Shown one piece after another: positions 43,086 to 64,000 of a stretch of DNA of 64,000 bases. The notes under the pieces are model-generated. The model was not told where the DNA came from and did not search any database. It was given only the letters and a program-made list of their open reading frames with translations. Origin of the DNA: an uncultured Bacteroidota bacterium (GTDB lineage: Bacteria > Bacteroidota > Bacteroidia > Flavobacteriales > Flavobacteriaceae); assembly GCA_902546725.1 (NCBI GenBank), contig CACCLB010000005.1:1-64000 (forward strand), given 5' to 3'. Position numbers and translations under genes: made by a program. How positions within the stretch are numbered: position 1 is the first letter of the stretch; every line of letters begins with the position of its first letter.

Positions 43086-43095
43086 TACCGTTAAA

Positions 43096-43144
43096 CGAGG
43101 AAGGATTTGACTGATTGCAACCTCGATAAAAAAATGCTAAAGCA
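43096..43144 (+). promoter_or_regulatory. SAM-II riboswitch aptamer
   Basis: P1 pairs CGAGG (43096-43100) with CCTCG (43121-43125). The conserved SAM-II elements follow in order: GATTT in the loop (43104-43108), TTGCAA (43115-43120), ATAAA after P1 (43126-43130), and GCTAAA (43136-43141) that folds back to complete the pseudoknot. Spacing agrees with the known alphaproteobacterial metX/metA aptamer. The location directly upstream of metK in a methionine operon fits SAM feedback. Confidence 0.92.
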
Positions 43145-43189
43145 GTGTTGCTTTATAAACGCACCGTTTGAATCCTTCCGTAAAGCAAC
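43138..43189 (+). promoter_or_regulatory. riboswitch expression platform with alternative hairpins
   Basis: TGCTTTA (43149-43155) can pair either upstream with TAAAGCA (43138-43144), which includes part of the aptamer's GCTAAA, or downstream, as GTTGCTTTA (43147-43155), with TAAAGCAAC (43181-43189), ending 6 bases before the metK ATG. In addition GGAAGGATT (43099-43107) is fully complementary to AATCCTTCC (43171-43179). With SAM bound, the aptamer would hold the upstream partners and free the start-proximal sequester hairpin; without SAM the reverse. This predicts translational control. Confidence 0.75.
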
Positions 43190-43195
43190 TTATAA

Positions 43196-44452
43196 ATGTC
43201 ATATTTTTTTACTTCTGAATCGGTAAGCGAAGGCCATCCTGATAAAATTGCTGATCAAATCAGTGATGCTTTATTGGATAATTTTCTCGCATTTGATCCC
43301 GAAAGTAAGGTAGCCTGCGAAACCTTGGTAACTACAGGTCAGGTGATCTTAGCCGGAGAGGTCAAAAGCGGTACTTATTTAGATGTGCAATCCATTGCAC
43401 GTGAAACCATTAATGCCATTGGCTATACCAAAGGAGCCTACCAATTTAGCGGCGATTCTTGTGGGGTAGTTTCTTTAATACACGAACAATCCCAAGACAT
43501 CAACCGTGGAGTTGACCGAGCGGAAAAAGAAGCCCAAGGAGCAGGTGACCAAGGAATTATGTTTGGCTATGCCTCTAATGAAACGGATAATTACATTCCA
43601 TTGGCCTTAGATCTTTCGCATAAAATTTTAATCGAACTTGCAGCCCTGAGAAGAGAAAACGACGCGATTACCTATCTGCGTCCTGATGCAAAATCTCAAG
43701 TGACCATAGAATACGATGATCATAATCAAGCGCTGAGAATTGACACCATAGTAGTCTCTACCCAGCACGACGATTTTGATTCCGATGAAGACAAAATGTT
43801 GGAAAAAATAAAGTCTGATATCGTTTCTATCCTGATTCCAAGAGTATTGGCAAAATGCGAAGCTCATGTCCAGCAACTTTTTGGATCCGATATTACCTAT
43901 CATGTAAATCCTACTGGGAAATTTGTAATCGGAGGACCTCACGGTGATACGGGATTGACTGGAAGAAAAATCATAGTGGACACTTACGGAGGTAAAGGAG
44001 GTCACGGAGGAGGAGCTTTTAGTGGAAAAGATCCCAGCAAAGTAGATCGCAGTGCTGCTTATGCATCACGGCATATGGCAAAAAATCTCGTAGCTGCAGG
44101 CGTAGCCGATGTGATACTTGTTCAATTGAGTTATGCAATTGGTGTGGTAGAGCCCACCTCAGTATATGTCAATACTTATGGTACCGCAAAAGTAGATTTG
44201 ACCGATGCGGAAATTGCTGACAAAGCAAAAGCCCTATTCGACTTACGTCCTTACGCAATCGAACAACGCCTCAAGTTGAGAAATCCTATGTATTTGGAAA
44301 CAGCTTCCTATGGGCATATGGGGCGTACGCCTCGTACGATAACCAAAACGTTTGAATCTCCCTACAACGGAAAAGTGTCGAAGGAAGTAGCACTTTTCAC
44401 CTGGGAACAATTAGATCATGTAGAAACAATTAAAAATTCATTTAAATTATGA
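43196..44452 (+). CDS. metK: S-adenosylmethionine synthetase MetK
   Basis: MetK makes SAM from methionine and ATP. The 418-residue protein starts [20 protein letters not shown] and has [32 protein letters not shown] and [19 protein letters not shown], all family signatures. It is the first gene after the SAM-II riboswitch, so the product's ligand controls its own synthesis. It overlaps metY by 4 bases (ATGA). Confidence 0.97.
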
Positions 44453-60669: not shown

Positions 60670-60768
60670 TGAATGTACTTTTTGTGTAGTTAAGATAGTT
60701 TATTTCACTTCATTTTTATCCAAACGGCTTTTTTTCTGTTGAAATCGTTAAAAAAAAGGAGGAAGTGT

Positions 60769-60798
60769 TTGTTTTTTTAAAAAGCTATGCTACATTTG
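60769..60798 (+). promoter_or_regulatory. promoter of the Phe/Tyr biosynthesis operon
   Basis: TTG (60769-60771) and TACATTTG (60791-60798) are separated by 19 bp, an ideal match to TTG-N(17-23)-TAnnTTTG. Initiation shortly downstream would give a short untranslated lead before the leader-peptide ATG at 60815. Confidence 0.8.
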
Positions 60799-60814
60799 TG
60801 CCGATTTAAAAGTC

Positions 60815-60883
60815 ATGAAAAACAATTTTTCTTATTACAATGCCTTCTATTACTTCTATAACGAAGCTAAGGGGACTTTGTAG
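60815..60883 (+). CDS. Phe/Tyr-rich attenuator leader peptide
   Basis: The 22-residue ORF has eight aromatic codons within residues 5-15: F5, Y7, Y8, F11, Y12, Y13, F14, Y15. Stalling of the ribosome on these codons when Phe- or Tyr-tRNA is short is the basis of attenuation. Its last sense codons (GGG ACT, 60872-60877) are identical to the 3' arm of the downstream terminator. It lies between a good promoter and pheA. Confidence 0.88.
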   Translation: MKNNFSYYNAFYYFYNEAKGTL

Positions 60884-60909
60884 TAAGATCATTACAACAT
60901 ATACAATTA

Positions 60910-60940
60910 AGAGTCCTGATTTTTTCGGGACTTTTTTTTT
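60910..60940 (+). terminator. attenuator terminator with competing antiterminator
   Basis: AGTCCTGA (60912-60919) pairs with TCGGGACT (60925-60932), followed by a run of nine T (60932-60940). The same 5' arm (AGAGTCCT, 60910-60917) can instead pair with GGGACTTT (60872-60879) at the end of the leader peptide, giving an 8-bp antiterminator with two G-T pairs. A ribosome finishing the leader would cover GGGACT and let the terminator form. Confidence 0.85.
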
Positions 60941-60948
60941 GAATTAAA

Positions 60949-61782
60949 ATGGAAGACAAACCAAAAATAGCGATACAAGGAAACCGAGGTTCGTTTCATC
61001 ATGTGGTGGCTAAGAACTACTACGGAGAGGATTTTTCTCTTGTAGTGTGTGAGACCTTTAACGATTCAGTAAAGGCCCTACTCAACGGTTCAGCAGATCA
61101 AGCAGTCATGGCTATTGAAAATTCCATAGCAGGTTCCATTATTCCGAATTATGCTTTGATTGATCGCAATAAACTTGCTATAGTTGGCGAATACAGTTTG
61201 AGTATCCATCACCATTTGATGGCTTTAAACGGTCAACAAATTGAGGACATCAAAGAAGTCCATTCCCATCCTATGGCTTTATTACAATGTCAGGATTTTT
61301 TCCATCAATACCCTCATATCCGTTTGGTTGAGTCGGAGGATACGGCTGACGAAGCTCGACGTATTTCAGAGCATCAACTTAAAGGTATAGGGGCAATTGC
61401 CAGTCAGGAAGCAGCAGAACTCTACGGAATGAATATTTTAGCTCCTTCCATTCAAACGATTAAAAACAACGTAACCCGATTTGTAATCATCCAAAACAAC
61501 GGTCAGCTTATTGCTGAGGACAAGATCAACAAGGCTGCGTTAAAATTTATATTAGACCACCAAAGAGGAAGTTTGGCTGCGGTACTCAACGTAATGAGTG
61601 ACTGCCAGCTGAATTTGACCAAGATTCAATCCCTACCGGTAATTGAAACTCCAGGGAAATATTCCTTTTTTGTGGACGTTACTTTCGATGCGTTTTCCAA
61701 TTATGACAAAGCTCGAAAACTGATTGCCATCATGGCTTCTGAATTTAAAATTTTAGGTGAATACGCCCAACATAAGAGATGA
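60949..61782 (+). CDS. pheA: prephenate dehydratase PheA (no chorismate mutase domain)
   Basis: It converts prephenate to phenylpyruvate. The 277-residue protein has IAIQGNRGSFHHVVAKNYYG, AIENSIAGSIIPNY and the TRF substrate motif in NNVTRFVII, followed by an ACT domain (GSLAAVLNVMSDCQLNLTKI) that usually binds Phe for feedback. It begins 9 bases after the attenuator T tract. The chorismate mutase step is expected from the fused enzyme at the end of the window. Confidence 0.95.
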   Translation: MEDKPKIAIQGNRGSFHHVVAKNYYGEDFSLVVCETFNDSVKALLNGSADQAVMAIENSIAGSIIPNYALIDRNKLAIVGEYSLSIHHHLMALNGQQIEDIKEVHSHPMALLQCQDFFHQYPHIRLVESEDTADEARRISEHQLKGIGAIASQEAAELYGMNILAPSIQTIKNNVTRFVIIQNNGQLIAEDKINKAALKFILDHQRGSLAAVLNVMSDCQLNLTKIQSLPVIETPGKYSFFVDVTFDAFSNYDKARKLIAIMASEFKILGEYAQHKR

Positions 61783-62930
61783 AGACAACAGCAAGACGTT
61801 TAGAAAGTGTACAGGAATACTACTTTTCCAGAAAATTGAGAGAGGTAGCAGCACGTGTAAAGGCAGGCCAACCCATCATCAATATGGGGATAGGGAGTCC
61901 TGATCTACCCGCTCATCCTTCCGTAATTTCCGCATTAGAAAAAGCACTTTCTCATCCTCGAGCACATATGTACCAAAGTTATCAGGGGCTTCCTGAACTG
62001 CGAGAGGGAACTAGTGATTTTTATAAAACACATTATCAAGTAGCATTGGATCCCAATTCCGAAGTTTTACCGCTGATGGGATCAAAAGAAGGGATAATGC
62101 ATATATCTATGGCCTTTCTAAACCCTGGGGATCAAGTATTGATTCCAAATCCGGGGTATCCAACTTATGCCGCTGTAACACGTTTGATGGAGGCTGAAGC
62201 TGTTTGCTACGAATTGGCAGAGCGCAACAATTGGCAGCCTGATTTTACTGCACTTGAAAAGTTGGACACCTCAAAGGTAAAAATCATGTGGGTTAACTAT
62301 CCTCATATGCCTACGGGAACTGATGTTGACCCTGCTGTTTTTGATCGGTTAATTGCCTGGGCAAAAGCGCGAGAAATTTTATTGGTCAACGACAACCCTT
62401 ACAGCTTCGTATTGACAGATAAGCCCCAAAGTATCTTGTCACGTCCTGGAGCCAAGGAGGTTGCACTCGAATTGAATTCTTTGAGTAAGTCGTTCAATAT
62501 GGCCGGTTGGCGTGTGGGTATGCTGAGTGGGAAAGCAGAGACCATACAGTCCGTCCTCAAAGTAAAAAGCAATATGGATTCCGGTATGTTTTATGGGATT
62601 CAACAAGGAGCAATAGCAGCTTTAAAAATGAATCAATCATGGTTTGATGAGCTTAATCAAATCTACCACAGGCGCAGAGCTTTGGTTGAGAAATTAGCAA
62701 ATCGATTGGGCGCTCAGTTTGATTCAAACAGTGTAGGGCTATTTGTCTGGGCTAAATTGCCCCAAGGAGCAAAAGACTCAGAAACCTATATCGATAAGAT
62801 TTTGGATGAACAGCATGTCTTCATTACCCCTGGGACTATTTTTGGATCTCAAGGAGAGGGTTATATTAGGTTTTCTCTATGTGTTCCAGAAGAAACCATA
62901 GTTGAAGTTTTAAAGCGATTTGAATCATGA
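61779..62930 (+). CDS. class I/II aromatic aminotransferase
   Basis: The 383-residue PLP enzyme probably transaminates phenylpyruvate and hydroxyphenylpyruvate. It has NMGIGSPDLPAHPSVISAL, YQSYQGLPELREG, the Asn-Pro-type segment WVNYPHMPTGTD and the PLP lysine in ELNSLSKSFNMAGWRVGM. It overlaps pheA and tyrA by 4 bases each. Role is inferred from operon position. Confidence 0.92.
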   Translation: MKTTARRLESVQEYYFSRKLREVAARVKAGQPIINMGIGSPDLPAHPSVISALEKALSHPRAHMYQSYQGLPELREGTSDFYKTHYQVALDPNSEVLPLMGSKEGIMHISMAFLNPGDQVLIPNPGYPTYAAVTRLMEAEAVCYELAERNNWQPDFTALEKLDTSKVKIMWVNYPHMPTGTDVDPAVFDRLIAWAKAREILLVNDNPYSFVLTDKPQSILSRPGAKEVALELNSLSKSFNMAGWRVGMLSGKAETIQSVLKVKSNMDSGMFYGIQQGAIAALKMNQSWFDELNQIYHRRRALVEKLANRLGAQFDSNSVGLFVWAKLPQGAKDSETYIDKILDEQHVFITPGTIFGSQGEGYIRFSLCVPEETIVEVLKRFES

Positions 62931-63799
62931 ATATAGGAGTAATTGGTTTGGGATTGATTGGTGGTTCATTTGCTTTAGCAGCTAAGGAGCATCTGGAGGA
63001 TGTAGTCCTTTATGGGGCGGATCAAAATCAAGCACATCTCGAAGAGGCTATTGAAAGCGGTATAGTTGACCAAAGTCTAAGCCCTGAGCTTTATCCGAAG
63101 ATGGATGTGATGATATTGGCTATTCCGGTCAATGCGGCTTCTCTTTTGATTTTAAATCTTTTGGATCAAATCAATGACAATGCGCTTCTTTTTGATGCAG
63201 GTTCCACCAAAGCATCGATTTGTAAGATAGTATCGCTCCACCCAAAACGCAATCAGTTTTTAGCTACCCACCCAATTGCGGGTACGGAATTTTCTGGACC
63301 TTCAGCTGCTTTTGCGGATTTGTATGTCAACCAGACTCAAATTTTATGTGAAGCACAAAAGACGCGTCCAGATTTATTGGAATGGGCAGTGCAGTTTTTC
63401 CGTTTGATGAAAATGAATATTGAGGAAATGGATCCCCAAGCACACGATCAGCACATTGCCTATGTTTCTCATATATCGCATATTTCCTCTTTTATGCTAG
63501 GAAAAACAGTAATGGAAAAAGAACAGGACGAACGTACAATTTTTGATATGGCTGGGAGTGGATTTGCATCCACCGTTCGATTGGCTAAAAGTTCCCCAGA
63601 AATGTGGACACCTATTTTTGAACAAAATAGTGTGAATATACTGGAAGTGCTCAACGAATATATTGCCAATTTAAAAGAATTTAAAAAACTATTAGAAAAT
63701 AAAAACTGGTCGGCTATGCACGAACAGATGCAAGAAATCAATGCAATCAAGACGATACTTGAGGGCATACCAGAAGGAAAAAACAACTTTAAAAACTAA
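62927..63799 (+). CDS. tyrA: prephenate dehydrogenase
   Basis: It oxidises prephenate to hydroxyphenylpyruvate for tyrosine. The 290-residue protein has an N-terminal Rossmann motif GVIGLGLIGGSFALAAKEH and the substrate-side motifs THPIAGTEFSGPSAAF and AYVSHISHISSFML with the catalytic histidine. No ACT domain is visible, so regulation may rest on attenuation. It lies 22 bases before the next gene. Confidence 0.94.
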   Translation: MNIGVIGLGLIGGSFALAAKEHLEDVVLYGADQNQAHLEEAIESGIVDQSLSPELYPKMDVMILAIPVNAASLLILNLLDQINDNALLFDAGSTKASICKIVSLHPKRNQFLATHPIAGTEFSGPSAAFADLYVNQTQILCEAQKTRPDLLEWAVQFFRLMKMNIEEMDPQAHDQHIAYVSHISHISSFMLGKTVMEKEQDERTIFDMAGSGFASTVRLAKSSPEMWTPIFEQNSVNILEVLNEYIANLKEFKKLLENKNWSAMHEQMQEINAIKTILEGIPEGKNNFKN

Positions 63800-63821
63800 A
63801 TACGAATTAATACTTAACACC

Positions 63822-64000
63822 ATGGAAAATAAAAAAGAAATGCGCCAGTGGCTAGATGATTTTGGATTGGATCACCCTTTAGTGATTGGAGGACCCTGTA
63901 GCGCAGAAACAGAAGAGCAGGTTTTAAAAATTGCACACGAACTCAAAGATACAGATGTAACCGTGTACAGAGCAGGTATTTGGAAACCACGTACACGCCC
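63822..64000 (+). CDS. 3-deoxy-7-phosphoheptulonate synthase, probably fused to chorismate mutase (5' part)
   Basis: Fifty-nine codons are visible before the window ends. LVIGGPCSAETEEQVLKIAH and VYRAGIWKPRTRP are the start of a KDO8P-type DAHP synthase. In this operon position flavobacteria usually carry the bifunctional DAHP synthase/chorismate mutase; the mutase domain would lie beyond the window. Confidence 0.9.
   Translation, partial: MENKKEMRQWLDDFGLDHPLVIGGPCSAETEEQVLKIAHELKDTDVTVYRAGIWKPRTR

Follow-up and report, generated by a model that had tools for sequence, protein, structure and literature searches.

The DNA preceding pheA in the flavobacterial sequence studied here is very probably a ribosome-mediated transcription attenuator, predicted to govern an operon of pheA, an aminotransferase gene, tyrA and a DAHP synthase gene. 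Within the window, as the whole 64,000-nucleotide stretch of analysed DNA is called below, its parts occupy the coordinates listed here. In related genomes these parts are conserved, and the alternative pairings co-vary.

60768-60798, + strand: Bacteroidota sigma-A type promoter (TTTG at 60768-60771, a 19-base spacer, TACATTTG at 60791-60798)
60815-60883, + strand: leader peptide ORF of 22 codons, MKNNFSYYNAFYYFYNEAKGTL (ATG at 60815, stop codon TAG at 60881-60883)
60827-60859, + strand: control codons 5-15 (F S Y Y N A F Y Y F Y; five Tyr, three Phe)
60830-60848, + strand: region 1; 60830-60840 pairs with 60878-60888 and 60844-60848 with 60870-60874 (protector 1:2, minimum-energy fold)
60872-60879, + strand: region 2, GGGACTTT, codons 20-22, the 5' arm of the antiterminator, pairing with 60910-60917
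60910-60919, + strand: region 3, AGAGTCCTGA, common to the antiterminator (2:3) and the terminator (3:4) (fold, alignments)
60925-60932, + strand: region 4, TCGGGACT, the 3' arm of the terminator (fold, alignments)
60932-60940, + strand: nine-T tract of the intrinsic terminator (sequence)
60949-61782, + strand: pheA, prephenate dehydratase, the first controlled gene (PF00800, E 1.2e-57)
61779-62930, + strand: class I/II aminotransferase (PF00155)
62927-63799, + strand: tyrA, prephenate dehydrogenase (PF02153, PF20463)
63822-64000, + strand: DAHP synthase, 5' part only, running off the window (PF00793 on 63816-63998)

Promoter, operon and leader peptide

The four genes run in the same direction, with frames that lie close together or overlap; the start of the DAHP synthase frame, at MENKKEM, was chosen by eye. 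Their Pfam assignments bear out the sequence-only reading of this DNA, which had matched the Phe and Tyr codons of the leader to an operon of these four functions. The C-terminal stretch of PheA is weakly ACT-like, with PF01842 scoring below its cut-off, and the closest named match to pheA (97% identity) is that of Flavobacteriaceae bacterium TMED48. As the gene 5' of the promoter is divergently oriented, both the promoter and the terminator can be assigned to the pheA operon.

The promoter, the 22-residue leader, its eight Phe or Tyr residues in eleven codons and the nine-T terminator all lie where that reading had placed them, save that it began the promoter one base late. The leader ATG is 16 nt beyond the -7 element. 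Both promoter elements agree with the TTTG/TAnnTTTG consensus of the Bacteroidetes primary sigma factor, as given in a passage of PMC7366714, and the same motif is present 15-19 nt upstream of the leader ATG at all 30 own-genus loci (L001-L030).

A density of eight Phe or Tyr per 12 residues is reached by no other of the 1056 short ATG ORFs in the whole window (8-60 aa, both strands), the runners-up having six, and it does not recur in any of 200 dinucleotide-shuffled versions of the upstream DNA (row L124). The combination of promoter, short frame and terminator likewise occurs at a single site when both strands of the window are scanned for the pattern. The predicted leader is rich in codons for what the operon produces, and its use of both Phe and Tyr fits because the operon makes both amino acids. 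One account describes translation initiation in this phylum as proceeding without Shine-Dalgarno pairing (PMC10931766).

The leader stop codon stands 65 bases ahead of the pheA ATG. This distance bears on the proposal that control is exerted on translation only, the leader boosting translation of pheA through ribosome reinitiation while the hairpin is incidental. Reinitiation has been proposed for gene-proximal leader ORFs, for which a section of PMC4833913 gives a Bacteroidetes peak at 11-14 bases; with 65 bases separating the two frames here, and a strong T-tract terminator lying among them, it is barely credible as the explanation of this leader.

RNA structure in the window

The helix formed by 60912-60919 with 60925-60932 constitutes a predicted intrinsic terminator between the leader and the first gene (-14.2 kcal/mol, z -5.1, none of 200 shuffles as good), and the leader RNA folds with a z of -4.9 relative to shuffles. 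The motif GGGACT is found at 60872-60877, in codons 20-21, and again within 60925-60932, and the sequence agrees with the earlier claim that these two copies share one partner, the AGTCCT at 60912-60917. The predicted antiterminator takes up the 5' arm of the terminator and lies close enough to the control codons for a ribosome stalled on them to affect it. In the window considered alone the 2:3 pairing is less extreme, being equalled by 7 of 200 shuffles (fold z -1.95, 8 of 200), and the backing for this predicted pairing is comparative.

The minimum-energy fold contains a further hairpin, the main helix of which joins codons 6-9 (60830-60840) to the end of the leader and its stop codon, thereby hiding region 2; the whole of this protector spans codons 6-12 and the leader end. 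Added to the 2:3 and 3:4 pairings, it gives the predicted element the complete architecture of a classical four-region attenuator. The attenuation mechanism put forward in the sequence-only reading is supported, but the two-way switch that it described left out this 1:2 hairpin, which the window contains and for which the genus provides support.

A smaller hairpin (GTAA/TTAC) is nested between regions 2 and 3 at the leader stop, at 60883-60895, and an equivalent GTATT/AATAC hairpin is found at four other loci (L011, L015, L017 and L027). It may bring regions 2 and 3 together, or pause the polymerase.

A conserved, structured 5' element accompanied by a terminator might also be a T-box or a riboswitch, in which an RNA binding a tRNA or a metabolite would operate the terminator independently of translation. 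Nothing in the element matches Rfam at a gathering score, the best of 4227 families, the leader-peptide family Phe_leader, being itself sub-threshold, and the ORF occupies about half of the stretch from the leader ATG to the T-tract; an RNA of this type is accordingly given next to no weight relative to attenuation by a translating ribosome.

Conservation and covariation among close relatives

A leader with 6-9 Phe or Tyr per 12 residues precedes pheA at every one of the 110 loci fetched from the genus, Flavobacterium and near kin (L001-L110, from at most 97 distinct genomes). These comprise the best 30 own-genus matches, namely the window's genome and 29 others after exclusion of the contig-end matches G005 and G007, and the best 80 of 223 matches in named genomes; the upstream DNA of L031-L043 is identical to that of 13 of L002-L030. 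The aromatic codons, on whose conservation the sequence-only reading had staked its interpretation, are thus kept throughout. A comparison of 22 equally long own-genus leaders shows Phe or Tyr at positions 7, 8 and 11-15 in 19 to 22 of them, with occasional swaps between the two, and variable residues at positions 3, 4, 10, 16 and 19. The typical Flavobacterium leader is MSNNRFYFSNSFYFFF, and in all 63 aligned leaders from that genus the sequence GGATTGT is unbroken, being coding in 45 and lying just past an earlier stop codon in 18. That region 2 is kept whether it is coding or not implies selection on the RNA and the aromatic codons, rather than on the peptide.

This has a bearing on the alternative in which a small functional peptide, such as a membrane peptide, is the product of the short ORF, with the hairpin serving as an ordinary terminator of this ORF or of a neighbouring gene. 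The terminator is indeed directly 3' of the ORF, and the aromatic positions of the peptide are kept. However, conservation is found mostly at those positions, with leader ends differing between close relatives, and region 2 is retained irrespective of its translation. Furthermore, the frame precedes the matching biosynthetic gene at all 110 close loci and at many distant ones, and the divergent upstream gene needs no terminator here. A functional peptide is consequently a very improbable explanation, and attenuation remains the preferred one.

The terminator arms (3:4) are paired in all 240 cells of the 30 own-genus rows and in all 522 cells of 58 distinct Flavobacterium rows. For the antiterminator (2:3), the paired fraction is 92.5% of 240 cells in the own genus and 464 of 464 in Flavobacterium. 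Because region 3 is common to both helices, any change within it requires two answering changes. This is observed in five of the 58 Flavobacterium rows, in which CCT has become CCC in region 3 and is matched both in region 2 (AGG to GGG) and in region 4, and between the genera, where the three arms move jointly from GGACT/AGTCC/GGACT to GGATT/AATCC/GGATT. The GGGACT/AGTCCT pairing noted in the window is hence either kept in relatives or exchanged for another complementary pair, with a few mismatched rows; region 2 is mismatched in six own-genus rows, four with AGGTCT (L024, L025, L028 and L029) and two with GGACC (L007 and L008). Column shuffles are uninformative for these two pairings in the own genus, since both hardly vary within genera.

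The 11-pair part of the protector hairpin is paired in 79.7% of cells across the 30 own-genus leaders, and five of the 11 pairs are changed on both sides. The paired fraction is reached by 2 of 500 column shuffles and the covariation score by 4 of 500; at least as many doubly changed pairs arise in 51 of the 500. Sliding the partner by three columns gives a covariation of 0.124, compared with 0.121, but only 68.8% of cells are then paired. In Flavobacterium a different 1:2 pairing is found, with 96.2% of cells paired, and this is so nearly invariant that there is little to judge it by.

Distribution in the class and phylum

A prephenate dehydratase domain was found in 44 of 158 sampled genomes of the class. 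Apart from the window's own, 27 of 43 class genomes with the domain have a leader with at least six Phe or Tyr in 12 residues; this figure combines 26 of 42 from the main scan with one further genome (G088), the leader of which has six. The upstream scan covered 53 regions, made up of 43 of the 44 class hits, nine from order relatives and one from an own-genus genome (L199). At least six Phe or Tyr in 12 are present in 34 of them, 31 at a level reached by no more than 2 of 200 shuffles. These leaders, of which MNTFATYFFFFFYYFYFSNEVKREFVYVR and MNRFSFTYYFYYFYFSRVKAGVCM are examples, come from 18 families when order relatives are included (f1, f2, f3, f9, f13, f17, f21, f28, f30, f45, f46, f49, f50, f53, f57, f62, f69 and f75). 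In the rest of the class genomes scanned, such as all five examined from f27, no leader of this kind was seen.

Searching 1000 bases before the domain in 20 genomes from 20 families of other classes in the phylum detected no leader of this kind. The best frame outside the class has five Phe or Tyr in 12 (L271) and the others at most four; in L264 and L271 the open frame starts 372-411 bases upstream of the domain. In the genomes sampled here, the element seems to belong to the class and not to the phylum.

The leaders share a common layout. The set in which this was studied consists of 72 leaders and combines the 30 loci from the own genus with 34 of the 53 scanned regions and eight of the 67 loci L044-L110, L124 duplicating L001. 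In all 72 a terminator lies between the leader and pheA, and in all 72 the distance from the last control codon to the start of region 2, the best partner of the terminator 5' arm, is 3-14 nt. The 2:3 pairing is equalled by at most 10 of 200 shuffles in 63 of them and by more than 10 in nine. Over the same set the letters of region 2 are highly diverse, including GGGACT, AGCCGGGA, TGAAGCGGGAG and AGAGGT. Fixed spacing with changing letters is the pattern that a ribosome footprint would be predicted to impose.

Regions with four or five Phe or Tyr (L122, L136, L189, L190 and L194) were left out of this set. Among these, L190 resembles a leader, and L136 and L189, with the pheA leaders MKLTQTYFWFYPTLSTGG and MQLLNTYFWFYPSPETGG, have the pattern YFWFYPxxxxGG in common, in which the Phe and Tyr codons are fewer and accompanied by one Trp. 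These may possibly represent a variant that senses Trp as well.

Simulated ribosome positions and proposed mechanism

Equilibrium folding with a ribosome mask was tried as a test of the switch, and failed to discriminate between states: in the window the terminator wins at every position (P 0.93-1.00). It was hence replaced by folding of a transcript that lacks region 4. With the terminator favoured at equilibrium, any switch must be kinetic, the 2:3 helix forming first and persisting.

The replacement simulation placed a ribosome mask of assumed footprint size on 71 leaders, the RNA of each being cut off short of region 4. Sequestration of region 3 has a mean of 0.85 when the ribosome is stalled on the control codons, against 0.36 when it is at the stop codon; the corresponding means in a control with shuffled spacers are 0.62 and 0.51. 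A margin of 0.3 between the best stalled position and the stop position is reached in 57 of the 71 leaders, compared with 17 of 71 shuffled, the remaining 14 leaders falling short of this difference. Outside the own genus and Flavobacterium, the same contrast is present in 22 of 33 leaders and 4 of 33 shuffled. The window itself has values of 0.93 stalled and 0.59 at the stop codon, a weaker contrast than the average.

The element is best explained by the following sequence of events. Transcription would begin a few bases past the TACATTTG element, and a ribosome would load near the 5' end of the RNA, at the leader ATG. When either charged Phe-tRNA or charged Tyr-tRNA is scarce, this ribosome would stall on codons 5-15, covering region 1 and leaving region 2 free; GGGACTTT could then capture region 3 as it emerges, before region 4 exists, and allow readthrough into pheA. 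If both tRNAs are plentiful, the ribosome would reach the stop codon and cover region 2, such that the 3:4 terminator ends the RNA near 60940. Were the leader not translated at all, region 1 could pair with region 2 and termination would again be expected.

Folding without a ribosome sequesters region 3 with a mean of 0.70 (0.46 in the window). This implies that the leaders do not generally possess a firm 1:2 protector, and that many relatives may read through if the leader is untranslated. The enterobacterial trp attenuator differs in this respect.

Leaders of other amino acid operons

Similar elements are found upstream of other biosynthetic genes. All 12 own-genus hisG loci are preceded by a His leader, that of the window's genome (L150) being MKTTTLHGHHNTTRSNEM, and have a terminator and antiterminator with only 0 to 6 of 100 shuffles as good. 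A Trp-Trp leader (MNRTIIFLNEWWNTFQQ) and a conserved terminator lie upstream of trpE at all 11 own-genus loci (L153-L163). These hisG and trpE loci fall within L141-L163, the partial locus L164 having been left out; L150 and L153 are on other contigs of the window's own genome. No antiterminator was found in the 11 trpE leaders, at each of which 20 to 96 of 100 shuffles paired equally well. The terminator upstream of trpE, AAGGCTTGTCATCACGACAAGCCTT, hardly differs between the 11 loci, and all except L154 have the loop ATCAC.

Across the class, hisG matches were found in 56 of 119 genomes. Of the best 30 class-wide loci, 25 have a frame with at least three His in 12 codons, and 22 do so at a level reached by at most 2 of 100 shuffles. 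Within the genus, no convincing leader could be identified at ilvD (12 loci from 11 genomes, 10 of them usable), leuA (8 loci) or aspartokinase (16 loci). The window's own genome is incomplete; no ilvD match was found in it, and its large aspartokinase gene is broken by a contig end.

Elsewhere in the window, a SAM-II riboswitch (43091-43150, + strand; 79.6 bits against a gathering score of 44) directly precedes an S-adenosylmethionine synthetase gene at 43196-44452. On the same strand 3' of this gene are two Cys/Met PLP enzymes, an alpha/beta hydrolase and a B12-dependent methionine synthase, and the genes behind the riboswitch are probably a methionine cluster.

Possible age of the system and its implications

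We lean, if only slightly, towards the view that control of aromatic and histidine synthesis by leader-peptide attenuation is old and has been vertically kept in the class Bacteroidia, independently of its proteobacterial counterpart. The grounds are the presence of Phe/Tyr leaders in 18 families of the class and in none of 20 families from other classes, along with His leaders at 22 of the best 30 class-wide hisG loci. If this were true, classical attenuation would be a standard regulator of amino acid synthesis in a large class whose regulation is poorly mapped, and ribosome and RNA polymerase would have to stay in close step in the phylum. No specific treatment of transcription-translation coupling in Bacteroidota was found in the portions of the literature searched; the attenuator would provide a natural reporter for it in organisms in which initiation lacks Shine-Dalgarno pairing. 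Amino acid attenuators would then not be a gammaproteobacterial invention. Such a history would be evidence against the suggestion, made in 2013 for the four attenuator motifs that Rfam contained at the time, that amino acid attenuators may have arisen in gammaproteobacteria, with few transfers (PMC3766115). The interest of the element lies in its spread through the class, the apparent edge of that spread and the handle it would offer on coupling.

Comparison with known attenuators

The sequence-only reading was right that such attenuation is much less documented in Bacteroidota, but there is a flavobacterial precedent. A 2021 study of Flavobacterium psychrophilum (ISME Commun) reports, in the relevant section, clues of leader-peptide attenuation at amino acid operons, and a conserved structured 5' element upstream of pheA, i.e. 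at the same gene in related bacteria; the pheA and hisG elements were also found in other Flavobacteriaceae genera, without Rfam hits (PMC9723704). Section 19 of that report does not give the pheA leader sequence, its arms or the mechanism by name, which table S7 or appendix D9 may hold. Leader-peptide-like small frames within long 5' UTRs are mentioned in part of the B. thetaiotaomicron transcriptome report (PMC7366714), and the word 'leader' is absent from the main text of a 2021 paper on Bacteroidota his genes (PMC8305728). No description of the pheA attenuator itself in Bacteroidota or Flavobacterium was found in the literature covered, which included few subscription papers. The attenuator is not new in kind; its anatomy, its spread and its apparent edge are, as far as this search extends. 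In 2010 Lopatovskaya, Seliverstov and Lyubetsky published a comparative study that may already predict Bacteroidetes attenuators.

No Rfam leader family matched the window at its threshold. The top match over the 301 bases searched was RF01859, Phe_leader, which we take to represent the enterobacterial phenylalanine leader attenuators of pheA and pheST. The whole model was spanned, at 22 bits compared with a cut-off of 55 (E 0.17). With its score below that threshold, the element would work like Phe_leader without counting as a member of that Rfam family. The likeness consists of an aromatic leader ORF and a terminator upstream of pheA, and four alternating regions occur in the enterobacterial phenylalanine leaders as they do here. 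The window differs in having more Tyr (five) than Phe (three) control codons, which fits an operon yielding both products, in an operon that additionally holds tyrA, the aminotransferase and DAHP synthase, and in a Bacteroidota promoter with, on the account cited above, initiation lacking Shine-Dalgarno pairing. The four-region logic is also that of the E. coli trpL and hisL attenuators, and the comparison with these extends beyond pheA, as the window's genus has Trp-Trp and His-rich leaders as well.
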